From: Aromatoleum toluclasticum ATCC 700605
Lineage (GTDB): Bacteria; Pseudomonadota; Gammaproteobacteria; Burkholderiales; Rhodocyclaceae
Assembly: GCF_000378245.1 (NCBI RefSeq)
Contig: NZ_KB899511.1
Coordinates: 1-64,000 of the forward strand
Length of the DNA: 64,000 nt
Direction of reading: 5' to 3'
The notes under the pieces were generated by a model. The model saw nothing but the letters and a program-made list of their open reading frames with translations, was not told the DNA's origin and did no database searches. Positions 45,044-61,162 of the stretch are shown in pieces; positions within the stretch are counted from its first letter, which is position 1; the number at the start of each line of letters is the position of its first letter. The translations under genes were made by a program, and so were the position numbers.

Positions 45044-45072
45044 GCGCAGGTTTTTTGCCTGCGAAAGCCCCC

Positions 45073-46971
45073 ATGCCCGCTGCCGCCTCGGAAATGCTGG
45101 TCGGAGCCAGTTCGGACTTCCTCACGCGCTTCTCGCCGTTCAACCGGATGGAGCCGGAGGCGCTCGCATTCCTGGCCGAACGCGCGACCCTGGCATTCCA
45201 CGCGCGCGGCAGCGAGATCCTGACGCCGGAGATGGGGCAGCCGACGCACTTCCACATCGTCCAGCGCGGCAAGGTGCAGGCCCGCCAGCTCGGCCCCGCG
45301 AGCGTCACCGACTACGCCGCGATGACACTCGGGCCGGGCGAATGCTTCCCCATCGGCGCGATCGCGGCGCAGCGGCCCTCGACCAACGCCTACGTGGCCG
45401 TGGAAGACAGCTTCGTATTCCAGCTGCCGGCGGAAGACTTCCTCAGGCTCATGCAGATGAGCCCCGTCTTCCAGGTCTTCTGCACGCAGTACATCGCCAG
45501 CCTGCTCAACCAGTCGCGCCAGCAGCTGCAAAGCACCTTCGCGCAGCGCGCAGCGGAGCAGCAGACGATGACGACGCCGCTCGGACAGTTGGTGAAGAAA
45601 GCGCCGATCTTCGTCACGCCCGACAGCTCGATCCGCGCCGCGCTCGAGAAGATGTCCGAGATGCGCATCGGCTGCATGGTGATCACCGACGCCGACCGGA
45701 AGCCGCTCGGGATCCTCACTCAGAGCGACCTGCTGCCCCGCGTCGTGCTGCCGGGCATCGACCTGCAGCGTCCGATCGGCGACGTCATGACCGCAACGCC
45801 ACACGTGATGTCGGCCTCCGACTCGGCCTACGACGCCGCCCTCGAAATGGCGACGCACGGCGTGCGCCATCTGCTGGTGGTCGATTCGGAGGGCCGTCTG
45901 AAGGGCGTGGTGTCCGAGCGCGACCTGTTCGCGCTGCAGCGCATCGGCTTGCGCCAGATCCGCTCCAGCATCGAGGGCGCGGACGACCTGGAAGCCCTGC
46001 AACGTGCAAGCCGCGACATCCGTCAGCTGGCGCTCAATCTCATCGCCCAGGGTATCGGAGCGGAACAGCTGACGCAGTTCATCTCGGCGCTCAACGACGC
46101 CCTGACCTGCCGCATCATCGATCTCGCGCGCGCGAAGCACGACCTGTACGGCATCGACTACGCATGGCTGGCCTTCGGCTCGGAAGGCCGCCACGAGCAG
46201 ACGCTGTCCTCCGACCAGGATAACGGCATCATCTACGTCTGCCCGGAAGGTGCAGACCCATCCGCCCTGAAGAGCCGCCTGCTGGCCTGCGCCAAAAAGG
46301 TGAACGAAGACCTCGCCGCCTGCGGCTTTCCGCTGTGCAAGGGCAACATCATGGCGAGCAATCCCGAGCTGTGCCTCACGCTCGATGAGTGGAAGGGACG
46401 CTTCGGCGACTGGATCCGCGAGCCCGACCCGCAGGCCCTGCTCAACGCGACGATCTTCTTCGACTACCGCGTGCTGTGCGGCAACGAGCGCCTGGGCGAC
46501 CAGCTGCGGGCGTGGCTGAATCGCACGGCCAAGGCCTACTCCAATTTCCTGCGCCTGATGGCGTCGAACGCGCTGCAGGTCGCGCCGCCGCTCGGACGCA
46601 TCCGCGACTTCGTCGTCGAGGACGACGGCACGATTGACCTGAAGAAGTCGGGGGCGCGCCTGTTCGTCGACGTCGCCCGCATCCTCGCCTTGCGCGCCGA
46701 CGTCGCATCGAGCAGCACCGTGCAGCGCCTGCGCCAGGCGGGCACGCGGATGGGCATGCCGGCCGAGGAGATCGCCGCCCTGATCGACGGCTTCCACTTC
46801 ATCCAGCTGCTGCGCTTGCGCTCGCAGCACCTCGACACCGAACACGACGCACCGGGCGACAACCGCATCGACCCCGACACGCTCAACGAACTCGATCGGC
46901 GCATCCTCAAGGAAGCGTTCCGGCAGGCCCGCAAGCTGCAGCTGCGGCTGAAGCTCGACTACCAGCTATGA
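45073..46971 (+). CDS. cNMP-binding/CBS/DUF294 nucleotidyltransferase-like protein
   Basis: 632 residues from ATG 45073. Order: cyclic-nucleotide-binding-like domain (~15-130), two CBS domains (~165-285), and a DUF294 nucleotidyltransferase-like domain with GSEGRHEQTLSSDQDNGIIY, then the DUF294 C-terminal substrate-binding domain. The layout resembles GlnD-like regulatory proteins. The target is unknown. The overlapping next gene (ATGA) is a DEDDh exonuclease-fold protein, a pairing I recognise from other proteobacteria. Confidence 0.88.
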   Translation: MPAAASEMLVGASSDFLTRFSPFNRMEPEALAFLAERATLAFHARGSEILTPEMGQPTHFHIVQRGKVQARQLGPASVTDYAAMTLGPGECFPIGAIAAQRPSTNAYVAVEDSFVFQLPAEDFLRLMQMSPVFQVFCTQYIASLLNQSRQQLQSTFAQRAAEQQTMTTPLGQLVKKAPIFVTPDSSIRAALEKMSEMRIGCMVITDADRKPLGILTQSDLLPRVVLPGIDLQRPIGDVMTATPHVMSASDSAYDAALEMATHGVRHLLVVDSEGRLKGVVSERDLFALQRIGLRQIRSSIEGADDLEALQRASRDIRQLALNLIAQGIGAEQLTQFISALNDALTCRIIDLARAKHDLYGIDYAWLAFGSEGRHEQTLSSDQDNGIIYVCPEGADPSALKSRLLACAKKVNEDLAACGFPLCKGNIMASNPELCLTLDEWKGRFGDWIREPDPQALLNATIFFDYRVLCGNERLGDQLRAWLNRTAKAYSNFLRLMASNALQVAPPLGRIRDFVVEDDGTIDLKKSGARLFVDVARILALRADVASSSTVQRLRQAGTRMGMPAEEIAALIDGFHFIQLLRLRSQHLDTEHDAPGDNRIDPDTLNELDRRILKEAFRQARKLQLRLKLDYQL

Positions 46972-49161: not shown

Positions 49162-49295
49162 TCTCCAGACGTTGGGGGCGGCGCGGGCGATGCTCGGAGA
49201 AGTGACGACCGGGTCGGTTTCCCGGCGCCAACCGGCTGAAAACCCACGTTATTCGATGAGCCAGTGGCAGCTTGGGGGAAAATCCGGCGATTGTC

Positions 49296-49311
49296 TGGAC
49301 GGTAACGCACA
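49296..49311 (-). promoter_or_regulatory. Crp-like operator, site 1
   Basis: On the minus strand: TGTGCG-TTAC-CGTCCA, a 6-4-6 palindrome with one mismatched pair. It lies upstream of regulator 1; no clear -10 at the expected distance. Part of a seven-member set. Confidence 0.45.
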
Positions 49312-49360
49312 CAAGACGCCCGTGCCGCCGGGCGTGCAAACCCTGCATCGCGCGCCCCGG

Positions 49361-50104
49361 TCAGTCCGGCTGCGGCTCGCCGCCCTCCGGCAGCAGGCGC
49401 CGAAACTCGTCCCTGACCACGGCGTAGCATTCACAGGAACGCGCCTCCAGTCCCACGCGGTCGAGTACGGTGATATGACCACGCCTGTACTCGATCAGTC
49501 CGGCCTTCTGCAAGTTGCCGGCCGCCTCCGTGACGCCTTCGCGGCGCACGCCGAGCATGTTGGCAATCAGTTCCTGGGTCATCAGCAGCTCCTGCACCGG
49601 CAGGCGATCCAGGCTCAACAACAGCCAGCGGCAGAGTTGCTGATCCAGCGTGTGATGGCGGTTGCACACCGCCGTCTGCGCCATTTGCGTCAACAGCGCC
49701 TGCGTGTAGCGCAGCAACAGGTCATGCACTGCACCGGAGCGTCGCCCCCCGACACGATCGAATTCTTCCTTCAGGCGATCGCCCGCCAACCGGTAGGCGT
49801 ACCCCGCACTTTGCACGACAGCCCGGCTGGGCGTGGTTTCGCCGCCCATGAACAATGAGACGCCGATGATCCCTTCGTTACCGACCACGGCGATCTCCGC
49901 CGCGGCGCCATTCTCCATGACACACATCAGGGACACGATCGAGTCGGTCGGGAAATAGACGTGATGCATCTGGATCCCGGGCTCGTAAAGCACGTCTCCG
50001 AGCGACAGCGAAACCAGTTCCAGCTGCGGAACGAGGCGCGTGTATTCGTCGTCCGGGAGGGCTGCGAGAAGGCGATTCTGGCGTGGATCTTGAGAGTCGG
50101 ACAT
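49361..50104 (-). CDS. Crp/Fnr-family transcriptional regulator 2
   Basis: 247 residues from ATG 50104 (GGAGGACC upstream). The cupin domain has HHVYFPTDSIVSL and VGNEGIIGVSLFMGG; the HTH recognition region is IANMLGVRREGVTEAAGNL. CRP cAMP-contact residues and FNR cysteines are missing; the C-terminal RSCECYAVV motif is characteristic of this subfamily. It is a paralogue of regulator 1, separated from it by 199 bp. Ligand unknown. A good palindrome (50161-50176) and TATACT -10 precede it, suggesting autoregulation. Confidence 0.9.
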   Translation of the reverse strand: MSDSQDPRQNRLLAALPDDEYTRLVPQLELVSLSLGDVLYEPGIQMHHVYFPTDSIVSLMCVMENGAAAEIAVVGNEGIIGVSLFMGGETTPSRAVVQSAGYAYRLAGDRLKEEFDRVGGRRSGAVHDLLLRYTQALLTQMAQTAVCNRHHTLDQQLCRWLLLSLDRLPVQELLMTQELIANMLGVRREGVTEAAGNLQKAGLIEYRRGHITVLDRVGLEARSCECYAVVRDEFRRLLPEGGEPQPD

Positions 50105-50160
50105 ACCCGGTCCTCCACTCGTCGAATAACCGTCCTCAGTATAGGCCCTGGCTTCCGATA

Positions 50161-50176
50161 TGTGCGGCAGCGAACA
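50161..50176. promoter_or_regulatory. Crp-like operator, site 2
   Basis: TGTGCG-GCAG-CGAACA, 57 bp upstream of the regulator 2 start. A minus-strand TATACT (50143-50138) lies 17 bp from its edge, slightly closer than at the other sites. Confidence 0.55.
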
Positions 50177-50242
50177 CACACCCAAGGACACGGCGCAGAA
50201 CGTCCGCGCGCCGTTTGCGCCGCGCGTCCCTGCCCTCGGTGT

Positions 50243-52459
50243 TCAACGGCGGTTGTCTTCCTGCTGCTCTTCACTGTCCTTGTTCTTGTTGCGTCCCCTG
50301 CCCTGAGCAGGCTTGGGTTCCTCGTCGCGCGGCTCGCGCGACTGCACGTCCGGGGTCTGCGGGGTCGCACGTTGCGGTGCGACCTCGGGCTGTGGCGCAC
50401 CTCGGGCCGGAGACGGCGCTATTGCCGGTTCGCGCTGCGGTCGCTCTCGACGCGGCTCCCGCTCCTCGCGCTGCTCGGACTTTCGTCGTGGTTCGGGCAC
50501 TTGTGCGGCCGGCTCGGTGGGCGTCGCCGGGACAGCGGGCTCGACCGGCCTCGTTCGCGTCGCGGGGTTTGGCGGCACGGCGGGTGTCACACGCGGCGCA
50601 GCGGGTTCGGGCTCGACGGGGCGTGGGGCAGCGGTTCGTCCGCGCTGTTCATCGTTTCCACGCTCGTCCACCCTTCCCCGCTGCCCATCGTCGCCGCGCC
50701 TTTCCGGTCTGCCCCGTATATCGCGCGGTTGCGCTTCCGGTGCGGCTGGCGTCGCCTGCTGCGGCGCAAGCGGAGGCTGCGCTGCACGCCCGGACGGTTC
50801 CTGCTGCGGTGCCGCGGGCTGTCCGCGCTCCTCGCCCCTCCCCCGCTGTTCGGACTGTCCGCGTGCATCGCCGGCCTTGGCTCCGAATCCCGCCTGCGGC
50901 GGTTGCACCGTCGGCGGCGCTTCCTGCTTCGGCGCGACCACCTTGACGGCGGGTGCCGGCACGGTCGCTGCGCGTTTGAGCTCCATGCGCTCGGCCTCGT
51001 CGAGCGGTTTGCCCTGCCGGGCATTCAGTTGCTGCTGTTGTGCCGCGAATCCGATCGGTGCAGGCGGAGGCGCGGTGCGCGCGACGACGCCGCGTTCGAA
51101 CGCGCGCGGCGGCGGTTTCCCGCCCTGGCTGGCTGCGCCGCGGATGCTCTTTTCGGTCGGGGCGATGGGCGCGGCCAGTGCAAGCGGTGCACTTCCGACC
51201 ACTTCGCGGGATACCCGCACCGCACTCCTCGATACCGGCTGCGATTGCACGAACGCCGTCGTCGGTACGGCGACGACGGCACCCTCGACGGTCCGATTGG
51301 CGTGGACCACGGTGGTCACGTTCGTATTGTTGTAATAGTTGTTGATCACCGTGGTGTTGATGACGGTGTTGCTGCGGTTGATGTTCTCGAAATAGTTGCG
51401 GCTGACCTGGTAGACCGGTCGATACACTTCGCGTGGCGCCAGCGGGAACCATGCGACACCGCCGACGGGGCCGCTCGAGATCGTAAGCTGGAAGTTGCCA
51501 CCGCCCACGAACACCACCAGTGCCGGGGCGTAGTACGCCCGGCTGCGCACGGGACCTGGGACCCACGCCCACGTTCCACCGAGATACGCCCAGCGGCCGT
51601 AATGGGATACGGCAAAGCCCCAGGGGGCGTCATCCACCCAGGTCCAGCCCCAGGGGTCGATCCATGCCCAATGACCGTCGCGATAGGGGACCCAGCCAAC
51701 GGCCACGCGGGTCGGGTACCAGACGCTGCCGTAGGTCGGGTCGTCGCGCCAGTCGCCGTACTCATCGAGTTCCTGATAGCCGACCACGTCCTCCGACACG
51801 TAGCGGACGGAGCGCGAGTCATCGTAGCGGCGATCGCGACTGCTCGCCCAGCGATCGAAGTCGTCCGGGCGCGGCACGTCGACATACTCGTATTCGCGCA
51901 GGCCGGTGCCGGTAAAGCGATACGGTTGTCGCGGATCGATGACGTAGGCCGCGTCCTCACCGTACACCTCGCCCTGGCCCTGGCGCACGAAGATCGTCGT
52001 CGCATCGTTGTCGGCATCCACCTCGATTCGGTACGCACCGGGTTTCCGCAGGGTAAAGGCAAGATTCGGCGTATCCACCTCGAAGATCTCGCCGGGCGCG
52101 AGACGACGCACGCGCACGTTCAATGTGCCTTGCGTCAGCTGCAGCTGAGTCGTGCGGTCGTCGAGATTCAGAATGGAGGCGCCGGTACCGGCCTTCATGC
52201 GGACCAGGGCTCCGCCGGTCTGCAACTCGGCTCGCGCACCGGCGTCGACCCACAGGCGGTCCCCGGTGGTCAGGGGCCGATTGACCGAGGCCTCGAACCA
52301 GTCGTTGTCGCCCGCGGGGGACAAGCTCACCGCGCCGGCGATGTATGCAAGCCGCGCGATGCGCGACGGCGGGTCCGCACCAGCCCAGCCGCTGAAGAGC
52401 AAGATTGCGATGCCGGCCAGCAGTACGAGTATGCGGAGACGAAGAGATGGCGTATTCAT
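50243..52459 (-). CDS. FecR-like/DUF6600 secreted protein with Pro/Arg/Glu-rich tail
   Basis: 738 residues. A signal peptide (RILVLLAGIAILLFSGWAGA) is followed by a FecR-like beta region (~35-170) with WVDAGARAELQTGGALVR. Next is a Trp-rich DUF6600-type segment (~235-320, repeated WYPTRVAVGWVPYRDGHWAW and WGFAVSHYGRWAY). An Asn-rich stretch (NTTVINNYYNNTNVTTVVH) then leads into a ~300-residue low-complexity tail of Pro, Arg, Glu, Gln and Ala. Probably periplasmic or surface-exposed; function unknown. Site 3 and a TATGGT -10 lie upstream. Confidence 0.8.
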   Translation of the reverse strand: MNTPSLRLRILVLLAGIAILLFSGWAGADPPSRIARLAYIAGAVSLSPAGDNDWFEASVNRPLTTGDRLWVDAGARAELQTGGALVRMKAGTGASILNLDDRTTQLQLTQGTLNVRVRRLAPGEIFEVDTPNLAFTLRKPGAYRIEVDADNDATTIFVRQGQGEVYGEDAAYVIDPRQPYRFTGTGLREYEYVDVPRPDDFDRWASSRDRRYDDSRSVRYVSEDVVGYQELDEYGDWRDDPTYGSVWYPTRVAVGWVPYRDGHWAWIDPWGWTWVDDAPWGFAVSHYGRWAYLGGTWAWVPGPVRSRAYYAPALVVFVGGGNFQLTISSGPVGGVAWFPLAPREVYRPVYQVSRNYFENINRSNTVINTTVINNYYNNTNVTTVVHANRTVEGAVVAVPTTAFVQSQPVSRSAVRVSREVVGSAPLALAAPIAPTEKSIRGAASQGGKPPPRAFERGVVARTAPPPAPIGFAAQQQQLNARQGKPLDEAERMELKRAATVPAPAVKVVAPKQEAPPTVQPPQAGFGAKAGDARGQSEQRGRGEERGQPAAPQQEPSGRAAQPPLAPQQATPAAPEAQPRDIRGRPERRGDDGQRGRVDERGNDEQRGRTAAPRPVEPEPAAPRVTPAVPPNPATRTRPVEPAVPATPTEPAAQVPEPRRKSEQREEREPRRERPQREPAIAPSPARGAPQPEVAPQRATPQTPDVQSREPRDEEPKPAQGRGRNKNKDSEEQQEDNRR

Positions 52460-52543
52460 GAGGAGTCCTTCCGCGGGAACGCGCCTTCAGGCACGGACTA
52501 AACCGCGTCGACGTCAACGTCGCTGTTCGGGGAAGATGAGAAG

Positions 52544-52586
52544 ACCATACGACGCACTGCACAGACGGTCTGTTCGTTAGCGCACC
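52544..52586 (-). promoter_or_regulatory. Crp-like operator site 3 and -10 for the DUF6600 gene
   Basis: TGTTCG-TTAG-CGCACC (52571-52586). On the minus strand, 21 bp further, is TATGGT (52549-52544). This is class II spacing (centre near -41.5). The predicted leader is about 78 nt. Confidence 0.55.
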
Positions 52587-52719
52587 AAGCCTGCTCACCG
52601 GTCCGACGAGGTCCGCAATTTCGGGCGCAACGCCGTCGATGGCCCTGCGGCCTCACTGCGACCAACACCACAGCATGTGCAGTGAGTAACCGATGGCGTT
52701 CCCCTCGCCGCACGGCATA

Positions 52720-52762
52720 TGTGCGTTGGCGAACAAACACGGAAAATCGTTTCCTCTATGCT
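52720..52762 (+). promoter_or_regulatory. Crp-like operator site 4 and -10 for the mlaE-like operon
   Basis: TGTGCG-TTGG-CGAACA (52720-52735), 21 bp, then TATGCT (52757-52762). Transcription would start near 52769, 21 nt before ATG 52790. This rules out the longer GTG 52682 start. Confidence 0.65.
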
Positions 52763-52789
52763 CGAACACATCCAGTCTCGAGTTCCGCC

Positions 52790-53926
52790 ATGGGCCGCAC
52801 ACCGGCGGCACCCGCCGCCATCACCCAATCATCGCCGCAGGAGTATGTGCTTTCGGGCGCCTGGACCGCGCAGGGGATCGGCGCCGTCACGCCGCAGCTC
52901 GACGCGCTGACCACACCCGCCGGCCAGGAATTGGTCGTCGACGGCGCACGCATCGAGGCTCTGGATACCGCAGGCGCCTGGGTCCTGCAGAAATTCCTGC
53001 ACCGGCTGGAAGACGACGCCAAGGGCGTGCGATTGCGCGCCTTGCGCCCCGAATTCGGCCGATTGCTCGAAGCGATCCGGCAACAGATGGCGGATCAGGA
53101 GCGCACCTTGGCGGTGCCTGCGATCGCATCCACAACGCCGCTCGAACGTTTGGGCCGGCACTTCGAAGCCCCCCTACAGCAGGGCTTCGCGCTGCTCAGC
53201 TTCGTCGGGGAATGCGCGCTCGCGCTTGGGGGATGCATCGCACAACCGACGCGACTCCGGTGGCGGCCGATTCTGTACAACATTCGCAGCGCCGGCTTCG
53301 ACGCCTTGCCCATCGTCGGGATGCTGTCCTTCCTCCTCGGCGTCGTCGTCGCCTATCAGGGCGCCGGCCAGCTCAGGCAGTACGGCGCCAACATCTTCGT
53401 GGCCGACCTCGTCGGCCTCTCCATCCTGCGCGAATTCGCCCCCCTGATCACCGCCATCATCGTCGCCGGGCGTTCGGGTTCGGCTTACGCGGCCCAGATC
53501 GGCACGATGTCGGTCACCGAGGAGATCGACGCCATGCGCACGCTCGGCATTGCACCGCTGGATCTGCTGGTGCTGCCCAAGCTTCTCGCGCTGCTGATCG
53601 TGCTGCCTCTGCTGACCGTGTTCGCCGACGCACTCGGCGTGTTCGGCGGCATGATCATGGCGCGCACGCAACTGGGCGTGGGCTTCGGCGATTTTCTCGA
53701 CCGTTTCGTCAAAGCGATCAGCGTCACGGCCTACCTGCTCGGCGTCGGCAAGGCGCCGGTGTTCGCCGCCATCATCGCCGTGGTCGGTTGCTTCCAGGGC
53801 TTTCGCACCCGTGGCGGCGCCGACAGCGTCGGCCGCCAGACCACGCGTGCCGTGGTGCAGTCGATCTTCCTCGTGATCGTTGCCGATGCCCTGTTCTCGG
53901 TCGCCTTCAGTGCGCTGGACCTCTGA
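52790..53926 (+). CDS. MlaE-type lipid ABC transporter permease with N-terminal STAS domain
   Basis: 378 residues from ATG 52790. Residues ~15-105 form a STAS-like domain (LVVDGARIEALDTAGAWVLQ). Residues ~140-378 form the MlaE permease with LPIVGMLSFLLGVVVAYQG, ILREFAPLITAIIVAGRSGS and EIDAMRTLGI, the hallmark MlaE coupling sequence. In E. coli the STAS protein MlaB is separate; here it is fused. It forms a transporter with the ATPase, Mce protein and lipoprotein encoded next, probably moving phospholipids between membranes. Confidence 0.9.
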   Translation: MGRTPAAPAAITQSSPQEYVLSGAWTAQGIGAVTPQLDALTTPAGQELVVDGARIEALDTAGAWVLQKFLHRLEDDAKGVRLRALRPEFGRLLEAIRQQMADQERTLAVPAIASTTPLERLGRHFEAPLQQGFALLSFVGECALALGGCIAQPTRLRWRPILYNIRSAGFDALPIVGMLSFLLGVVVAYQGAGQLRQYGANIFVADLVGLSILREFAPLITAIIVAGRSGSAYAAQIGTMSVTEEIDAMRTLGIAPLDLLVLPKLLALLIVLPLLTVFADALGVFGGMIMARTQLGVGFGDFLDRFVKAISVTAYLLGVGKAPVFAAIIAVVGCFQGFRTRGGADSVGRQTTRAVVQSIFLVIVADALFSVAFSALDL

Positions 53927-53927
53927 C

Positions 53928-54782
53928 ATGCCCGGCCCGACGCCTTCCAACGAAGCAGTCATCGAGATCAGCAAGCTGTCTACGAGCTTCGGCGACCACC
54001 TCGTGCATTCCGGAATCGACCTGGAAGTGTACCGCGGTGAGATATTCGCTTTGATCGGCGGCAGCGGCTCCGGCAAATCGACGCTGTTGCGTGAAATGAT
54101 CCTACTGCATCGGCCGGATGCAGGCTCCATCCGCATCCTCGGCGTCGATCTGCAGACGCTCGGCCATGGCGACGCCGACGACGAAACCCTCGCGCTGCGC
54201 CGCCGTTGGGGGGTCATGTTCCAGCATGGCGGATTGTTCGGATCGCTGACGGTACGGGAGAACATCGGTTTGCCGCTGCGCGAGCACACCGGGCTGGACG
54301 ACGCGCTGATCGATGAAATCGCGGCCTCGAAGCTTGCCACGGCCGGGCTCGAACCTCAGGTCGGGGTGCAGTATCCGTCCGAACTCAGCGGCGGCATGAT
54401 GAAGCGGGCCTCGCTCGCACGCGCGCTGGCGCTCGACCCGGAGCTGGTTTTCCTCGACGAACCGACTGCAGGACTCGACCCCGAGAGCGCCGGGGAAGTC
54501 GACCAGCTCGTACGCCGGCTGCGCGACCTGTTCGGCCTGACCATCGTGATGATCACGCACGACCTCGACCTGCTATGGCAACTCGCCGACCGCGTCGCTG
54601 TCCTCGCCGACGGCAAGGTGCAAGGCATTGGTTCGATGCCCGAGCTCGCGCAAATGGACAACCCCGCGATCCGCAAATTTTTCGACGGCCCGCGCGGGAG
54701 AGCGGCCCAGGAACAGGGTCGACTGCCGCACGACGCGCACAGCGGCAGGGAAATCGGAAAATCGTCATGGAAAACAAAGTAA
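53928..54782 (+). CDS. MlaF-type ABC transporter ATPase
   Basis: 284 residues, one base after the permease stop. Walker A GGSGSGKSTLL, signature LSGGMMKRASLARAL (LSGG), Walker B LVFLDEPTAGLDP and H-loop MITHDLD are all intact. Energises the MlaE-like permease. The C-terminal tail (~30 residues) overlaps the Mce gene start by 16 bp. Confidence 0.92.
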   Translation: MPGPTPSNEAVIEISKLSTSFGDHLVHSGIDLEVYRGEIFALIGGSGSGKSTLLREMILLHRPDAGSIRILGVDLQTLGHGDADDETLALRRRWGVMFQHGGLFGSLTVRENIGLPLREHTGLDDALIDEIAASKLATAGLEPQVGVQYPSELSGGMMKRASLARALALDPELVFLDEPTAGLDPESAGEVDQLVRRLRDLFGLTIVMITHDLDLLWQLADRVAVLADGKVQGIGSMPELAQMDNPAIRKFFDGPRGRAAQEQGRLPHDAHSGREIGKSSWKTK

Positions 54783-55726
54783 ATTATGCGGTTGTCGGCG
54801 CCTTCGTCCTCGTTCTGGGTGCCGTCCTTATCGCTGGAGCACTGTGGCTCGCTTCGGGCGGTGCGTTCCAGAAGAAATACGATCTCTATCTGGCGATCGA
54901 GGACGAATCGGTTGCCGGCCTGAATTTGAATGCGCCGGTCAAATACAACGGCGTCGATGTCGGCAAGGTAAGGCAGATCCGACTCGACCCGGCCAACCCG
55001 GAACGGGTGAACCTGCTCTTCGCCATCGAGCGCGGCACACCGATCAAGGAGGACACGGTCGCCGTCCTCAAGACGCAGGGTCTGACCGGTATCGCCTACG
55101 TGGAACTCGGCGGCGGCACACAGGATGCGCCTTTGCTGCGCGCCACCGCAGGCAGCCCCTATCCGGTGATCCGGACCAAGCCCTCGCTCGCCGCACGACT
55201 GGAAAACGTGCTCACGAGCGTACTGGCAAAACTGGACAGCACCTCGGCCAGCATCAACGCCATTCTCAGTGAAGAAAATCGGGCGGCGTTCAACAGTGCG
55301 CTGACCGATATCGCCACCGTCGCGCGCACGATCGCCGCGCGCAAGGATGCACTCGATGCGGGCATCACCCAGGCCGCCAGTACGTTCGAGAACACCTCGC
55401 GTGCCGCCGCGCAGGCCGGCCCGGTGATCGACCGAATCGGGCGCAGCGCTGCGGCGATCGAGAAGATGGGCAACGAGGTCTCCCGTACGAGTGCCAGCGC
55501 CGGCAAGACCGTCGACGCGGTCAGCGCCGATGTGAAGCGCTTCTCGGAAGGGACGCTGCCCGAACTGGAACGCCTGCTCGGCGAACTGAGTGTGCTGGCC
55601 ACCTCGCTGCGGCGCCTCAGCGAACAGACCGAACGCAACCCCGCAGCGCTCCTGTTCGGGCGCAAGCCGGTGCCGGAAGGACCGGGAGAGTCGGCAACCG
55701 GACCACTGACGGAACAACGGCGATGA
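54767..55726 (+). CDS. Mce/MlaD family substrate-binding protein
   Basis: 319 residues: N-terminal membrane anchor (VVGAFVLVLGAVLIAGALWL, ~8-28), a single Mce domain (~38-115) with VAGLNLNAPVKYNGVDVGKV, then a long helical/coiled-coil region (~150-290) rich in Ala, Ser and Thr. Mce proteins form hexameric lipid-binding rings in the periplasm. The start overlaps the ATPase gene; the ATG follows GGAAAA. Confidence 0.9.
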   Translation: MENKVNYAVVGAFVLVLGAVLIAGALWLASGGAFQKKYDLYLAIEDESVAGLNLNAPVKYNGVDVGKVRQIRLDPANPERVNLLFAIERGTPIKEDTVAVLKTQGLTGIAYVELGGGTQDAPLLRATAGSPYPVIRTKPSLAARLENVLTSVLAKLDSTSASINAILSEENRAAFNSALTDIATVARTIAARKDALDAGITQAASTFENTSRAAAQAGPVIDRIGRSAAAIEKMGNEVSRTSASAGKTVDAVSADVKRFSEGTLPELERLLGELSVLATSLRRLSEQTERNPAALLFGRKPVPEGPGESATGPLTEQRR

Positions 55727-56424
55727 TGAATCCATCCCTCGCACGGGTTGCCCTGCTGTCCGCCGCCGGCTTGTTGCTGGTGTTCGGTGCAGGCTGCAGC
55801 GCACTGCGCCAGACGGCGGCCCCGCCGCCGGGCTTCTATTCGCTGGACGACGCACGGACAAAGACCGGGCCGTCAACGCATTCTCCGACGGGCGCATCGA
55901 TCGACTCGCCCACGTTGATCATCAACCCGCCGCACGCGGTATCCGGTTATGACAGCCAGCGCATCATCTACGTGCGCGAAGCCCACAAACTGGAATACTT
56001 CGCGCACAGTGAATGGGTCGACACGCCGGCGCGCATGTTGGCGCCGCTCATCGTCGCCGCGGTCGAGCTTAGCGGAGCATTCCGCGCGGTCGTGCTGGCG
56101 CCGAGCGCGGCAACGGGTGAGTTGCGCCTCGATACCGAGATCACCCGCTTGCATCACGATTTCTCCGGCCGGCCGAGTCGAGTCCGTTTCACGCTGCGCG
56201 CCATGCTCGTGGATAACAGGACGCGCCGGATCGTGGCTTCGCACGAGTTCGATGAAACCGTTGCGGCCCCGAGCGAGACCCCCTACGGCGGAGTCGTAGC
56301 GGCCAATCGCGCAGTGCAGACCGTGCTCGAGCAACTCGCCTCGTTTTGTGCCGAAGCGTTGGCGAACCGGCTCTCGACCGGATCCGAAGTCCCGAAACTC
56401 CCCGAAAGCATTCCCACGCGCTGA
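55723..56424 (+). CDS. ABC-type transport auxiliary lipoprotein (PqiC/DUF330-like)
   Basis: 233 residues. Signal ends with a lipobox (FGAGCS), then the family start FYSLDDAR; core elements include RIIYVREAHKLEYFAHSEWVDTP and ELRLDTEITRL. These lipoproteins partner Mce transporters at the outer membrane. It overlaps the Mce gene by 4 bp and closes the four-gene transport operon. Confidence 0.87.
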   Translation: MMNPSLARVALLSAAGLLLVFGAGCSALRQTAAPPPGFYSLDDARTKTGPSTHSPTGASIDSPTLIINPPHAVSGYDSQRIIYVREAHKLEYFAHSEWVDTPARMLAPLIVAAVELSGAFRAVVLAPSAATGELRLDTEITRLHHDFSGRPSRVRFTLRAMLVDNRTRRIVASHEFDETVAAPSETPYGGVVAANRAVQTVLEQLASFCAEALANRLSTGSEVPKLPESIPTR

Positions 56425-56578
56425 GACTGCAACGGCTCGGCGAACGCCGGCCGCGCAGCCCGGAAACGGAGTTTACGCGCCACGGCAAGCACGACGATTG
56501 CACGGCGCACACGCAGGGCCGATTGCTGTGCAACGTTTTCGGGATGGGGACGACCGGCGCTCATCGGGACGAGCGCTC

Positions 56579-56621
56579 TGTGCGGAACCGTACAGAGCCA
56601 AGCGCGCTTTCCGCGTAATAG
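56579..56621 (+). promoter_or_regulatory. Crp-like operator site 5 and -10 for the DUF3185 gene
   Basis: TGTGCG-GAAC-CGTACA (56579-56594), 21 bp, then TAATAG (56616-56621). The outer bases GCTC/GAGC extend the palindrome. The start of DUF3185 is 86 bp from the site. Confidence 0.6.
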
Positions 56622-56679
56622 TTATCCGGCGGACGGAAACATTCTCATCAACGGGCGCAAGTCAAAGGATCGACGCACG

Positions 56680-56904
56680 ATGAAAGCCCTGCTCTTTACC
56701 GGAGTCGCACTGATTGTGATGGGTGCAGCCGTTCTGGGCTACGACCATTACAGCTACACGACGACCGAAAACATTCTCCAGATCGGACCGATCACGGCGA
56801 CCGCCGAGCGGACACATACGGTTTCGATTCCGCCGCCGGTCGGCTGGTCCCTCATCGTCGGCGGCGCGTGCGTGATCGCTTTCGCCGTAGTGTCGAAAAA
56901 ATGA
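56680..56904 (+). CDS. Small two-helix membrane protein, DUF3185 type
   Basis: 74 residues with an N-terminal helix (LLFTGVALIVMGAAVLGYD), a short periplasmic YTTTENILQIGPITATAE segment and a C-terminal helix (GWSLIVGGACVIAFAVV). The layout and the IGP-T-A motif fit DUF3185. AAAGGA precedes the ATG. Unknown function, likely envelope stress. First of a set of four tiny membrane proteins. Confidence 0.75.
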   Translation: MKALLFTGVALIVMGAAVLGYDHYSYTTTENILQIGPITATAERTHTVSIPPPVGWSLIVGGACVIAFAVVSKK

Positions 56905-56924
56905 ACGCAAGAAAAGGAACCGAT

Positions 56925-57080
56925 ATGACTATCCACTTAGGCCTCGCTCCCATGGTGGCGCTGATCGCCGGGATTCTGATTCTTGTCGCACCCCGACTGT
57001 TGAACTATATCGTCGCGATCTATTTGATTCTCATCGGCCTGATCGGGCTCTTTGGTGCTGGCGCTCTCAATCTGCGCTGA
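56925..57080 (+). CDS. Small membrane protein, DUF3096 type
   Basis: 51 residues, almost entirely two hydrophobic helices (PMVALIAGILILVAPRLLNY and IVAIYLILIGLIGLFG). AAAAGGAACC lies upstream; an in-frame ATG at 56901 is possible but non-conserved in character. Function unknown; cotranscribed with the DUF3185 gene (20-bp gap). Confidence 0.75.
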   Translation: MTIHLGLAPMVALIAGILILVAPRLLNYIVAIYLILIGLIGLFGAGALNLR

Positions 57081-57443
57081 GCCCCGCAGCGGGTCGGTGC
57101 CTACCGAGACGCGTCAACTTTTCCCGCGCCACAATTCAGGCCTCATGCATATGCATTGGCACCACCCGGCATGGGATGCTCGACAGATCCACTCATGCCT
57201 TCTGTGCGCTGCCGTACAGACGAATGCAGCTCGGTGAGTACCATTGCGGGCAAGCACCCGGCGATGACGGTCGGTATCGGACACCGTATCCGAGCAGTCC
57301 GGCAATGGATCGCCGTCGCGAAGGTGCAACAGGGAAGACGGTTGCGAGGCCGGTGCAGGCGCCCTGGACAGGGCAACATCGGCACGCTTCGAGCGTGCCT
57401 CCTGAATGTTGCGCCGCTCAGCCGCACTGTCGGGAGTCATGCA
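57081..57443. other. Gene-free region with Crp-like site 6
   Basis: 363 bp. It contains TGTGCG-CTGC-CGTACA (57203-57218) followed after 20 bp by TACCAT (57239-57244). Transcription would start near 57252 and give a leader of about 190 nt to the DUF3309 gene. The frame is open through the leader but has no good ribosome site, so I do not call a gene there; a small RNA is possible. Confidence 0.5.
57203..57244 (+). promoter_or_regulatory. Crp-like operator site 6 and -10
   Basis: TGTGCG-CTGC-CGTACA, 20 bp, TACCAT. The right half-site is identical to site 5 (CCGTACAGA). Confidence 0.55.
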
Positions 57444-57602
57444 ATGTCAATCGGAACAATCCTGCTGATCATTCTGATCCTGATGCTGATTGGAGCAATC
57501 CCGACCTGGCCGCACAGCCAGGGATGGGGATACGGCCCCAGCGGCGGTCTCGGCGTGGTGGTGCTGATCCTGCTTATCCTGTTGTTGATGGGCAGGATAT
57601 AG
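57444..57602 (+). CDS. Small membrane protein, DUF3309 type
   Basis: 52 residues: helix IGTILLIILILMLIGAIPTW, then HSQGWGYGPSGGLG, then helix VVVLILLILLLMGRI. The WPHS-x-GWGYGPSGG linker is the DUF3309 hallmark. Function unknown; often found among stress-induced envelope genes. Confidence 0.8.
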   Translation: MSIGTILLIILILMLIGAIPTWPHSQGWGYGPSGGLGVVVLILLILLLMGRI

Positions 57603-57725
57603 AGCCCTTCGCACTCCCGACCCGCAGAAGAACTGGAAGGCGGTTCCGGCAGCACGTCGGGCCGGCCTTCGATACTGCCCCCGCACGTCTGCCGATGCGA
57701 CTTCACATAATGGGAAGGCACAAAA

Positions 57726-57890
57726 ATGCTGCATTACACCGTAGTCTTTCTGGTGATCGCACTGATCGCAGGTCTGCTCGGATTTACCGGCATTGCCGCG
57801 GGCGCCGTGGAGATCGCCAGGATCCTGTTCTTCATCTTTGTTGTCCTTTTTGTCGTGTCGCTGGTGATGGGCTTCAGAGGCCGAAAATGA
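57726..57890 (+). CDS. Small membrane protein, DUF1328 (YtjA) type
   Basis: 54 residues with two helices ([20 protein letters not shown] and [18 protein letters not shown]) and the conserved [17 protein letters not shown] junction. GGGAAGG precedes the ATG. Function unknown; E. coli YtjA belongs to the same family. Last of the tiny-protein set. Confidence 0.85.
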
Positions 57891-57948
57891 CTGCGCTGCC
57901 TCCGGGCGCCCACCCGGCACTGGATGAACCCCGGCCATGTGTTCACTT

Positions 57949-59367
57949 TCACACCCAAGTGCGCAGATTGGCGTCGAGGTCGCGCAGTGCGGTCCGCACT
58001 CCCTCTTCAATAACGGGGTGATAGAACGGCATCTCCAGCATCTGCGCGACCGTCATCCCGTTCTGCAAGGCCCACGCCAGCAGATGTGCAAGGTGCTCGG
58101 CAGCAGGGGCCACCATTTCCGCCCCGACGAAGCGGGCAGTGGCCAGATCACCGTACACCTTCAACAATCCCTTGTTCCGGAGCAGGATGCGCGCACGCCC
58201 CTGGTCCTCGAAACTCACCTCGCCGGTCGCGAAAGTCCCGGGCTTCATCGCGCGAAGGCCACCTCCCACGACTCCTATCTGGGGATCGGTAAACACCACG
58301 TTGATGCCCGCCCGCCGCAGTCCAGGCATCACCGGCATGCCCCGCGCGAGGTGCGCGGCATTGACACCGGCAATTCGCCCCTCGTCGGCCGCCTCATGCA
58401 GGAGCGGGATGTAGTTGCCCGCATCTCCCGCAATGAAAATCGGGCTTGCCCCATTCACGCTCACCGTCCGGGTGGTCGATGGATCAAACGACGGCACGCT
58501 CTTGTCATCGAGCGTGAGCGTGGTCCGGTCGAGACCGATGTCCGCCACATTGGGCACGCGGCCGGTCGCAGCGAGCACGTAATCGAAATACTCGACCACT
58601 TCGGAACCGTCCTTCCCCGCGCGTCGAATGGCGACGCGGTCGCCATAACGGCGTACGTCGGCAATGCGCGCATCGGGCGCCAGGGTGAATTCTTCGTTGA
58701 AGGTCTCGCAGGCGCAGGCCCTGATCTCGGGATCGCTGATGGGGCCGACACGACCGCCACGCCCGAGCACGGCCACACGAACCCCCAAACGGTGCAGTGC
58801 CTGGCCCAGTTCCAGCCCAACGATCCCGGGACCGATCACGGCCACGGCTTTGGGCAGATCGTCCCAGTCGAACACCTCGTCGCTCGTGATCAGGCAATCT
58901 CCCAGGGACTTGTACGAATCCGGGCAGACGGCGTGCGAGCCGGTTGCGATGACAATACTCTTGCACGTGACCCGCGTATGTTCATCGACCTCCAGGGTAT
59001 GGTCGTCGACGAAACAAGCGTGCCCGCCGATGCGCTCCGCCTCTGGAATGTCCTCCACGTCGCGCAGCACGAATCCGACAAAACGGTCGCGTTCGCGTCG
59101 CACACGCGCCATCACCGCATGACCATCGATGCGGACGCGGCCATCGACATGGACGCCGAACTCTGAGGCGCGCCCGACCGCATGGGCAGCCTCGGCGGCG
59201 GCAATGAGGAGTTTGCTCGGCATGCATCCGACGCGCGCACAAGTGGTACCGTATTCGCCGCCTTCGATGAGCACGGCACTCGCACCCGCTTTCCTTGCTG
59301 CATGGAATGCGGCAAGTCCTGCCGTACCGGCGCCGACCACTGCAACGTCAATCTCGACGGTATTCAT
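57949..59367 (-). CDS. Dihydrolipoyl dehydrogenase-like FAD disulfide reductase
   Basis: 472 residues from ATG 59367 (GGAGACAGAGAG upstream). FAD-binding GAGTAGLAA is at the N-terminus, the redox disulfide is in GTTCARVGCMPSKLL, NAD(P)-binding is in VAVIGPGIVGLELG, the second FAD motif is IFIAGDAG, and the C-terminal base is in YHPVIEEGV. It could be a lipoamide dehydrogenase or a related reductase. No 2-oxoacid dehydrogenase genes are nearby, and the Crp-like site upstream suggests a stress role. Confidence 0.85.
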   Translation of the reverse strand: MNTVEIDVAVVGAGTAGLAAFHAARKAGASAVLIEGGEYGTTCARVGCMPSKLLIAAAEAAHAVGRASEFGVHVDGRVRIDGHAVMARVRRERDRFVGFVLRDVEDIPEAERIGGHACFVDDHTLEVDEHTRVTCKSIVIATGSHAVCPDSYKSLGDCLITSDEVFDWDDLPKAVAVIGPGIVGLELGQALHRLGVRVAVLGRGGRVGPISDPEIRACACETFNEEFTLAPDARIADVRRYGDRVAIRRAGKDGSEVVEYFDYVLAATGRVPNVADIGLDRTTLTLDDKSVPSFDPSTTRTVSVNGASPIFIAGDAGNYIPLLHEAADEGRIAGVNAAHLARGMPVMPGLRRAGINVVFTDPQIGVVGGGLRAMKPGTFATGEVSFEDQGRARILLRNKGLLKVYGDLATARFVGAEMVAPAAEHLAHLLAWALQNGMTVAQMLEMPFYHPVIEEGVRTALRDLDANLRTWV

Positions 59368-59746
59368 CTCTCTGTCTCCTTTCACCGTGGCCCCTTGCCG
59401 CACAATCCCGGCGACGGTCGCAGCAATCCCCTCCGGATCGCTCGCATGGCTGCGGCGCTTTGCCGCCAGCGACGAGACTAGGACAGCTCGACGATTCACT
59501 CTGTGCGCAAGCACACATAGGGCGAAGCTGGTGTCGAAGCCGCTCACGACCGCGTTCGCGAGCGGCGGGGCCGCCGATGGGCAATCGCGGCCGGGACCAG
59601 CCGGGGCTAGCCCCATGTTCGACGGCACATGGAACACGGCATGGAACCGGCCTAGACTTGCCTTCAAGGAGTGTGGCGCCCACAGCACACCGGTTCGCCG
59701 GATGTTGCGCACAGCGACGCATGCCAAGCCTTGCAGTAGAGTAAAC
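59368..59746. other. Divergent intergenic region, reductase / PLD genes
   Basis: 379 bp with no supported gene. It holds Crp-like site 7 (59502-59517), 21 bp from a minus-strand TAGTCT (59480-59475) in correct position for the reductase gene. No clear promoter for the rightward PLD gene was seen. Confidence 0.5.
59502..59517. promoter_or_regulatory. Crp-like operator, site 7
   Basis: TGTGCG-CAAG-CACACA; one base departs from the consensus in the right half. Spacing to the minus-strand TAGTCT is 21 bp. Confidence 0.45.
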
Positions 59747-61162
59747 ATGACCCTTCGCCAAGCACCGCTCACCCCTCGCCGGCTTGCATGGCGCAAGTTC
59801 CGGATGGCCGGCCTGTTCGGCCTGTTCGTCCTGGCCGGCTGTGGAAACCTGCCGACCATCGTGCCCGACATGTCGCGGCGCGGCCCAGCGCCGCAATTGC
59901 AGGGCGCACACGGCCCACTTTCGGCGGAGCAGAGCAAGGCGGTTCTCGACCGCCTCGCCAGTGGCGGACGCGAAACCGACATTTTCGAGCGTCACCTGGC
60001 CCTCGAAGAGGCCATCGCCGGCAGCCCCCTGACCACGGGCAATCGCGTACGGCTTCTGCAGGACGGCCCCGCCACCTACAGCGCGATGCTCGCGGCCATC
60101 CGGGACGCCCGCAACCACATCAACATGGAAACCTACATCCTCGACGACGACGAGATCGGCCAGCGCTTCGCACAGGCATTGATCGACAAGCAGCAGCAAG
60201 GCGTCCAGGTCAATCTCATTCGCGACAGCGCGGGCACCATCGGCACGCCGGCCGACTTCTTTCAGCGCCTGACCGGCAGCGGCGTCCACGTCCTGGAATT
60301 CAATCCACTCAACCCCCTGGTGACGCGCAAGGAATGGGAACTGAATCAGCGCGACCACCGCAAGCTGCTGATCGTCGACGGACACACCGCATTCCTCGGG
60401 GGCATCAACATCAGCAGCGTGTACTCGAGCGGCTCAGGCAAACAGCGTACGCGTCCCGGCCCGGACGGGAACGTCGGGTGGCGCGATACGCACCTGCAAG
60501 TGCAGGGACCGGTGGTCGCGGAATTACAGAAACTGTTCCTCTCGACGTGGGAAGCGCAAAAGGGTGCTCCACTGAAGGAAAGAAACTACTTCCCGCGCCT
60601 CGACAACGCCGGCCCGCACGTAGTGCGGGCGATCGGCAGTTCTCCCGACGAACCCTTCAGCCTGATCTACGCCACGCTGCTCTCGGCAATCGGCAGTGCC
60701 GAGAGCAGCGTACTCCTGACCAACGCCTATTTCGTGCCCGACCCCCAGTTGCTGGCAGCGCTCAAGGCCGCGGCCCGCCGGGGCGTCGACGTGACACTGA
60801 TCCTGCCCGGACAGACCGACTCCTGGCTAGTCCTCCATGCCGGACGCGGTTATTACGATCAACTGCTGAGCGCGGGGGTGAAGATCCATGAACGGCGCGG
60901 CGCGATCCTGCATTCCAAGACGGCGCTCATCGACGGCGTGTGGGCCACGATCGGCTCGACCAACCTCGACTGGCGCAGCTTCCTGCACAATCACGAACTG
61001 AATGCAGTGGTGCTGGGCGCGGAGTTCGGCCGCCAGGTTCACGCGATGTTCAAGAAGGATCTTGCGGAGTCCGACGCGATCACGCTCGAACAGTGGCGCA
61101 GCCGCCCGCTCCATCTGCGCCTCCAGGAATTGTTTGCGCGGGCATGGGAGTACTGGTTATGA
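59747..61162 (+). CDS. Phospholipase D/cardiolipin synthase-type lipoprotein
   Basis: 471 residues from ATG 59747. A basic N-terminus and signal (MAGLFGLFVLAGCG) end in lipobox LAGC. There are two HKD motifs: DHRKLLIVDGHTAFLGG and HSKTALIDGVWATIGSTNLD. The layout is that of ClsA/ClsC-type cardiolipin synthases, but it is anchored as a lipoprotein rather than by two membrane helices. It condenses or transfers phosphatidyl groups. The neighbouring Mla-like transporter fits a membrane-lipid theme. Confidence 0.87.
   Translation: MTLRQAPLTPRRLAWRKFRMAGLFGLFVLAGCGNLPTIVPDMSRRGPAPQLQGAHGPLSAEQSKAVLDRLASGGRETDIFERHLALEEAIAGSPLTTGNRVRLLQDGPATYSAMLAAIRDARNHINMETYILDDDEIGQRFAQALIDKQQQGVQVNLIRDSAGTIGTPADFFQRLTGSGVHVLEFNPLNPLVTRKEWELNQRDHRKLLIVDGHTAFLGGINISSVYSSGSGKQRTRPGPDGNVGWRDTHLQVQGPVVAELQKLFLSTWEAQKGAPLKERNYFPRLDNAGPHVVRAIGSSPDEPFSLIYATLLSAIGSAESSVLLTNAYFVPDPQLLAALKAAARRGVDVTLILPGQTDSWLVLHAGRGYYDQLLSAGVKIHERRGAILHSKTALIDGVWATIGSTNLDWRSFLHNHELNAVVLGAEFGRQVHAMFKKDLAESDAITLEQWRSRPLHLRLQELFARAWEYWL

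Follow-up and report, generated by a model that had tools for sequence, protein, structure and literature searches.

Which protein recognizes a palindrome that recurs before one gene after another in a compact cluster, and with what effect? The question is raised by a stretch of 64,000 nucleotides of Aromatoleum toluclasticum ATCC 700605 (contig NZ_KB899511.1, positions 1 to 64,000; hereafter, the window), where two adjacent genes coding for Crp/Fnr-like regulators, crp1 and crp2, accompany a gene cluster at 49.3-59.5 kb. The original prediction for this DNA was that seven copies of a 16-bp palindrome are bound by both regulators and define an envelope-stress regulon that includes the regulators themselves. 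The site, its conservation, its co-occurrence with the regulators, the phasing of the promoters, the target families and the protein fold were computed. The results make it highly probable that the adjacent Crp2-type regulator, and probably also the Crp1-type regulator, uses the seven palindromes as operators for the class II activation of a mobile stress island.

The Operator and Its Recurrence with the Regulators

All seven palindromes were found at the positions first reported (49296, 50161, 52571, 52720, 56579, 57203 and 59502). The claim that they lie only in intergenic gaps holds with the starts of crp2 and of the mlaE-like gene placed at 50104 and 52790; longer open reading frames (ORFs) cover two of the sites. 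The crp2 ORF is open to 50191, and its start was set downstream of the operator. Rough automatic gene calls enclose two of the seven sites, 50161 (within an over-long crp2) and 52571 (within a weak 53-codon ORF). Every one of the seven is flanked by T at position −2 and A at position +17, bases that lie outside the motif originally described and that are both present in only one of the ten other exact 16-mers of the source genome. The operator is therefore a 20-mer, TnTGTkCG-N4-CGmACAnA, longer than the 16-bp palindrome. Allowing up to one mismatch, the 20-mer occurs at 11 places in the 5.92-Mb genome, eight of them on the contig of the window (C21) and seven being the window sites. The 16-mer combined with the flanking A and the hexamer TAnnnT at a gap of 21 bp, again with up to one mismatch, has seven matches in the genome, six of them inside the cluster (three of the six with the mismatch within the hexamer). 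With two mismatches, the bare 16-bp consensus is mildly enriched (85 window matches vs. a shuffle mean of 52, standard deviation 9.3); the specificity of the sites is due to the fuller criteria (flanks, 20-mer and hexamer) and not to the bare consensus. A weight matrix made from the seven sites scores them at 18.9 bits or more and the next-best place in the window at 13.5 bits, a separation that is circular because the matrix was built from those very sites.

To follow the operator across genomes, a relative of Crp2 was defined as a match at E<=1e-20, which was found in 95 of 297 genomes of the family sample and in 36 of 68 genera. One set of loci (760,932 bp) came from 40 of these 95 genomes, which were mainly those heading the list, a few being passed over. 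Another consisted of the best 80 of at least 562 Crp2 relatives in named genomes, including Thiocapsa, Halomonas, Accumulibacter, Achromobacter, Variovorax, Polaromonas, Steroidobacter and Pseudomonas alcaliphila. Nine loci are common to both sets, one common pair being Aromatoleum buckelii and G276, which belong to the genus of the window. Unbiased counting of 5-bp dyads over whole loci was swamped by G+C-rich repeats, and pattern, matrix and upstream tests were used instead. The exact 16-mer is present 51 times in the 40-locus set, compared with 0-3 times for seven other dyads, and 89 times in the 80-locus set (in 59 of the 80 loci), compared with 0-12 times for ten dyads. A second matrix was built from 55 exact sites (40 loci plus the window), with an arm-reversed matrix as control. 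At 13 bits it detected 162 sites vs. 4 for the control in the 40 loci and the window, and 261 vs. 8 in the 80 loci; at 12.5 bits, 39 of the 40 loci and 78 of the 80 have a site.

The loose pattern TGTNCG-N4-CGNACA matches in 286 of the 297 genomes, many of them lacking the regulator, and for this reason a refined pattern was adopted. It was found 413 times in the 380 Mb of the 95 genomes that have a relative and 240 times in the 693 Mb of the 202 that have none (p=2e-19), a density of 1.09 vs. 0.35 per Mb, the reversed control giving 0.14 vs. 0.11. Within the genus, the exact 20-mer is found 24 times in seven genomes with a relative, once in five without it and seven times in five of undefined regulator content, and the 20 bases of operator 5 are identical in the genus-mates G167 and G697. 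A phylum-wide sample had a homologue at E<=1e-20 in 73 of 398 genomes. The distant homologues (34-45% identity), whose genomes are probably alphaproteobacterial, have two matrix sites in 20 loci vs. one for the control, and two of their upstream regions hold near-sites of 11.7 and 10.9 bits. For the nearer homologues from the same search, 18 of the 29 short loci have sites, 28 in all vs. 4 for the control. Homologues of at least 60% identity also occur in a family of another class (f39) and are not confined to one class. Across genera, the motif accompanies these Crp-like regulators and stands before regulator genes and recurring target families, as the original prediction had anticipated.

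Further occurrences of related sequences were recorded. On contig C21, outside the window and 9 kb past the last site, there is another 20-mer with one mismatch (68486-68505). Five of the ten exact 16-mers outside the cluster overlap frames with Pfam domains (ABC_tran, ZapD, RlmM, complex I 49 kDa and CoA transferase; one overlapping frame was scanned for each), and the remaining five have no Pfam domain in the single overlapping frame scanned. The sole exact 20-mer outside the cluster (C5:110258) overlaps an ORF for a membrane-protein-like product of 261 amino acids (aa). Two genus-mates share the same near-perfect 20-bp palindrome (G693:C13:205471-205490 and G137:C1:3937517-3937536), with arms TTTGTCCGC and GCGGACAAA, which is perhaps the site of another regulator.

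Promoter Geometry

An operator centered at −41.5 is in the position of a class II activator, and a gap of 21 bp to the −10 hexamer places the center there. The five −10-like hexamers of the original prediction are all present, four at a gap of 21 bp and TACCAT at 20 bp; four fit TAnnnT, and TAATAG at operator 5 is a looser fifth. A count of TAnnnT at all distances from the sites, to either side, gave 54 of 290 flanks for gap 21 and 0-8 for other gaps, and a second count gave 88 of 470, with 0-20 at other gaps. This sharp peak identifies the target promoters, as far as their sequences tell, as having class II Crp/Fnr geometry. In the window and 120 loci (loci common to both sets counted twice), 206 of 860 site-orientations have TAnnnT at gap 20-22, and their consensus is TnTGTkCGCTAGCGnACAGA followed by TAnnnT. 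The −35 position is occupied by the operator bases CGnACAGA and not by TTGACA, so the promoters look activator-dependent.

The Regulators and Their Own Promoters

Crp1 and Crp2 are 42% identical. Both have a Crp-type helix-turn-helix (PF13545, 55.5 and 55 bits) and carry the recognition helix MLGVRR(E/V)GVT, which is nearly invariant among relatives. NCBIfam matches of Crp2 were far under the cut-offs, and Crp1 had none. The AlphaFold2 model of Crp2 (pLDDT 86, pTM 0.86) predicts that the protein has a complete CRP/FNR fold (best Z 20.4), and its cyclic-nucleotide (cNMP)-like beta-roll is also detected by PF00027 (34.5 bits). The cNMP domain of Crp1, which was judged by profile only and not by a structure model, scores 15.6 bits, under the 27.5 cut-off. 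A profile of 33 sequences was compared with GlxR, where the Glu and the Arg-Ser/Thr positions are those that hold cAMP; Glu is replaced by Val, Arg by Thr and Thr by Pro. By this comparison, the cAMP anchors Glu and Arg are missing from Crp2. The conserved cysteines of the alignment are C147, C224, C226 and, nearly, C158, none of them N-terminal; C61, the sole cysteine before residue 147 in the Crp2 of the window, is not conserved. C147, H151, C224 and C226 are invariant in the 33 aligned sequences, including Crp1 of the window, and may form part of a redox or metal site.

The motif tracks Crp-like regulators over genera and plasmids, in agreement with binding by one or both of the two adjacent regulators. 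Genome G256 has one match at E<=1e-20 among the nine of its 18 candidates that were scored, yet it has 11 refined sites, which suggests that a Crp2-type protein alone can suffice for the use of the operator.

Matrix sites are frequent within 300 bp before the regulator genes. Among the genes with sufficient upstream DNA in the two locus sets, 28 of 48 and 59 of 93 of the Crp2 type have such a site, as do 11 of 17 and 27 of 44 of the Crp1 type; the control matrix found none in any of these four groups. It is thus likely that the regulators bind before their own genes. TAnnnT at gap 20-22 is present before 9 of 48 and 15 of 93 Crp2-type genes (24/141) and before 1 of 17 and 6 of 44 Crp1-type genes (7/61). 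A second cluster of −10 hexamers was found at gap 17-18 before Crp2-type genes (L049-L168), with 17 for crp2 of the window. Since the 21-bp spacing is missing from most regulator promoters, autocontrol may be either positive or negative, and of the proposal that the regulon includes its regulators, the siting before their genes stands while self-activation is uncertain.

Plasmid-Borne Loci

A relative at E<=1e-40 is encoded in 58 of 72,556 plasmid records, and loci from nine of these 58 were analyzed (248 kb). They come from Burkholderia cenocepacia (a 3.2-Mb replicon), B. multivorans, B. ubonensis, pKLC102 of Pseudomonas aeruginosa, Variovorax, Acidovorax, Methylomagnum, Cupriavidus and Paraburkholderia. 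The matrix detected 22 sites vs. one for the control, and ten of the 22 have TAnnnT at gap 21. Several of the loci have integrases or transposases nearby. An operator is present in seven of the nine loci, among them that of pKLC102. Very large genes of the glucoamylase/GH94 family were also observed near the regulator in plasmid loci (L191 10207-18720, L194 3207-11852, L198 2635-11229 and L192 33894 onward).

Genes of the Island and Target Families

The features of the cluster are listed in Table 1. The sites precede the genes named in the original prediction, of which the label DUF3185 is weak, the 74-aa protein scoring below the PF11381 cut-off. PLD-type relatives adjoin operators in other loci. 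Just before the island there is a gene of the DUF294/CBS/cNMP-domain nucleotidyltransferase type (window 45055-46971), then exonuclease and NlpC/P60 genes.

Table 1. Coordinates of regulator genes, operators, hexamers and other genes of the cluster in the window.
Feature	Coordinates	Strand	Remarks
crp1, Crp/Fnr-like regulator, 240 aa	48439..49161	-	PF13545 HTH_Crp_2 55.5 bits
Operator 1	49294..49313	-	before crp1; 20-mer, 1 mismatch
crp2, Crp/Fnr-like regulator, 247 aa	49361..50104	-	PF13545, PF00027 above cut-off
TATACT, operator 2 (crp2)	50138..50143	-	gap 17, off the 21-bp spacing
Operator 2	50159..50178	-	before crp2; exact 20-mer
DUF6600 gene	50243..52459	-	PF20245 94.2 bits
TATGGT, −10-like, operator 3	52544..52549	-	gap 21
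Operator 3	52569..52588	-	before DUF6600 gene; 20-mer, 1 mismatch
Operator 4	52718..52737	+	before mlaE-like operon; exact 20-mer
TATGCT, −10-like, operator 4	52757..52762	+	gap 21
STAS-MlaE permease	52790..53926	+	PF02405, PF13466; ORF opens at 52682
ABC ATPase	53928..54782	+	PF00005
MlaD/MCE protein ORF	54575..55726	+	PF02470; true start probably further downstream
ABC-transport auxiliary lipoprotein	55723..56424	+	PF03886
Operator 5	56577..56596	+	before 74-aa membrane-protein gene; exact 20-mer
TAATAG, operator 5	56616..56621	+	gap 21; not TAnnnT
74-aa membrane protein, weakly DUF3185-like	56680..56904	+	PF11381 13.5 bits, cut-off 25.3
DUF3096 small membrane protein ORF	56868..57080	+	PF11295 65.3 bits; behind 74-aa gene
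Operator 6	57201..57220	+	before DUF3309 gene; exact 20-mer
TACCAT, −10-like, operator 6	57239..57244	+	gap 20
DUF3309 small membrane protein, 52 aa	57444..57602	+	PF11752 83 bits; start counted back from product
DUF1328 small membrane protein	57726..57890	+	PF07043
Dihydrolipoyl-dehydrogenase-like flavin reductase	57949..59367	-	NF004939 667.5 bits; start = internal Met
TAGTCT, −10-like, operator 7	59475..59480	-	gap 21
Operator 7	59500..59519	-	between reductase and PLD genes, phased to reductase; 20-mer, 1 mismatch
PLD/cardiolipin-synthase-like gene	59804..61162	+	PF13091; start uncertain

The 206 phased orientations comprise 166 with a clustered target and 40 without one. The largest target clusters are the regulator itself (33) and CsbD (21; PF05532). 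A cluster of 17 was translated in a shifted frame; its in-frame relative matches PF04226 just over the cut-off, and the cluster would be GlsB-type. Next come a GGDEF/EAL protein (14, identified by reading the sequence), DUF3309 (9), an sll1863-type protein (9, over the cut-off) and an OsmB-like lipoprotein (9; 70.2 bits, under the cut-off of 98). BON, DUF883 and cyclopropane-synthase-type genes and, by reading the sequence, OmpA-like and phasin-like genes are downstream of sites in some loci. Families of this kind are usually associated with general, osmotic or envelope stress, hence the label of an envelope/general-stress programme. The name of an envelope-stress regulon, as originally proposed, derives from the target families, and a general or osmotic label would fit them equally well.

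Alternative Explanations and Known Systems

Several observations weigh against regarding the palindromes as activator operators of the adjacent regulators. Among the 95 genomes with a relative, 15 have no or one refined site, ten of the 202 without it have at least four, and the reversed-pattern control also shows a slight excess where the regulator is present (p=0.03). The genus-mates G276 and G288 have a relative and no exact 20-mer, and no matrix site was found in the Methylomagnum and Cupriavidus plasmid loci. The operator and the regulator are neighbors, so linkage could inflate their co-occurrence; moreover, the statistics of the sets include the nine shared loci and ignore kinship. Measured by rough gene calls, which cover 56% of the sequence and enclose 38 of 165 sites, the intergenic bias is modest. 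Most regulator promoters depart from the 21-bp spacing; in the window, the TATACT of the crp2 site is at gap 17, and no convincing −10 hexamer accompanies the crp1 site.

The sites could instead be bound by another chromosomal Crp/Fnr protein, of the true Crp, Fnr/Anr or Dnr type, the local regulators being merely regulated. The 16-bp size and the TGT...ACA ends fit a Crp layout, and the genomes hold up to 25 loosely similar candidates, not all of them Crp/Fnr. We nevertheless consider this quite improbable: TGTGA-N6-TCACA, TTGAT-N4-ATCAA and TTGAC-N4-GTCAA were found 0-3 times in both locus sets, genomes with a Crp2 relative have a threefold higher density of refined sites, and the sites of the source genome are confined to the neighborhood of the regulator. 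That confinement, together with the flanks, the promoter phasing and the recurrence in distant genera, also contradicts a dispersed repeat, a terminator or a chance set unrelated to a regulator; the mild excess of the two-mismatch consensus (85 vs. 52) fits such an origin, which is hardly credible. A regulator acting mainly as a repressor, with an operator that overlaps the −35 position and blocks the polymerase until a signal releases it, is unlikely. The coverage of the −35 position and the second spacing of 17-18 bp at Crp2-type promoters would suit repression, but the bases at −35 are CGnACAGA rather than TTGACA, and the sharp 21-bp gap is the class II spacing.

Compared with the established properties of E. 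coli CRP and of class II CRP promoters, the system shares the 16-bp core with TGT...ACA ends, the fold and the site at −41.5. It differs in the half-site, TGTGA for CRP and TGTkCG here, and in the absence of the cAMP-holding Glu/Arg; the CRP operator TGTGA-N6-TCACA has one match in the 40 loci and none in the 80. FNR, ANR and DNR resemble it in fold (A. fischeri FNR, Z 19.8 vs. the Crp2 model) and in class II geometry. Their half-site is TTGAT, and FNR and ANR have iron-sulphur N-terminal cysteines, whereas the Crp2 alignment has no conserved N-terminal cysteine; TTGAT-N4-ATCAA was matched once in the 40 loci and three times in the 80. The half-site is therefore distinct from those of CRP and FNR, as had been claimed. 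SdrP of Thermus and DdrI of Deinococcus are Crp-fold stress activators with other operators, and SdrP is not known to require a ligand. They share the Crp fold with the Crp2 model and differ in belonging to other phyla, with 24% (SdrP, 2zcw) and 17% (DdrI, 8yz7) identity to Crp2 over the structural alignment. In the available text of the papers on the lxa low-oxygen locus of Burkholderia cenocepacia, clustered stress genes with a proposed Crp/Fnr regulator are described, which is a likeness to the present island, and Anr-like BCAM0049 and universal stress proteins are named (PMC6127331, PMC9104464, PMC3759415). By that description, the lxa locus differs in the regulator named, and the word "motif" is absent from the main texts of the three papers. 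The text available of PMC5343134 does not mention Crp, Fnr, general stress, Dnr or HcpR, and that of PMC9733578 does not mention Crp, Fnr, motif, DUF3309 or regulator. A description of the operator or the regulon was not found in open PMC text, a scope that makes the absence weak. The sequences are best read as a class II regulon of the Crp/Fnr kind that has an operator code of its own.

Proposed Mechanism and Biological Meaning

From these results we infer a model for binding, activation, stress function and signal. A dimer of the Crp2-type, and probably also of the Crp1-type, regulator would bind the 20-bp TnTGTkCG-N4-CGmACAnA. At target promoters, the operator would lie at about −41.5, with the −10 hexamer 21 bp away and operator bases in place of a −35 hexamer, and a class II contact with RNA polymerase would activate transcription. 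The regulator would bind at its own promoters too, many of which have a spacing of 17-18 bp or none that is clear. Genes for small membrane proteins, for lipid transport and lipid synthesis and for redox functions would make up the regulon, a compact island capable of horizontal transfer that would act as an envelope/general-stress programme. Crp2, lacking cAMP anchors and an N-terminal cysteine cluster, may act simply via its own level.

A widespread Crp/Fnr subfamily, for which no characterization was found in open PMC text, thereby acquires a DNA code, a target list and a promoter geometry, which make its function directly testable, and many small DUF membrane proteins are joined into one programme. 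The presence of both regulator and operator on plasmids means that stress tolerance could travel with its own control. We advance only tentatively, as a possibility somewhat short of an even chance, the broader proposal of a plasmid- and island-borne beta/gamma-proteobacterial stress regulon, run by a ligand-independent or thiol-sensing pair of regulators with their own operator code in parallel to RpoS/EcfG control. If this is true, a recipient would gain a ready-made, self-controlled envelope-protection programme.

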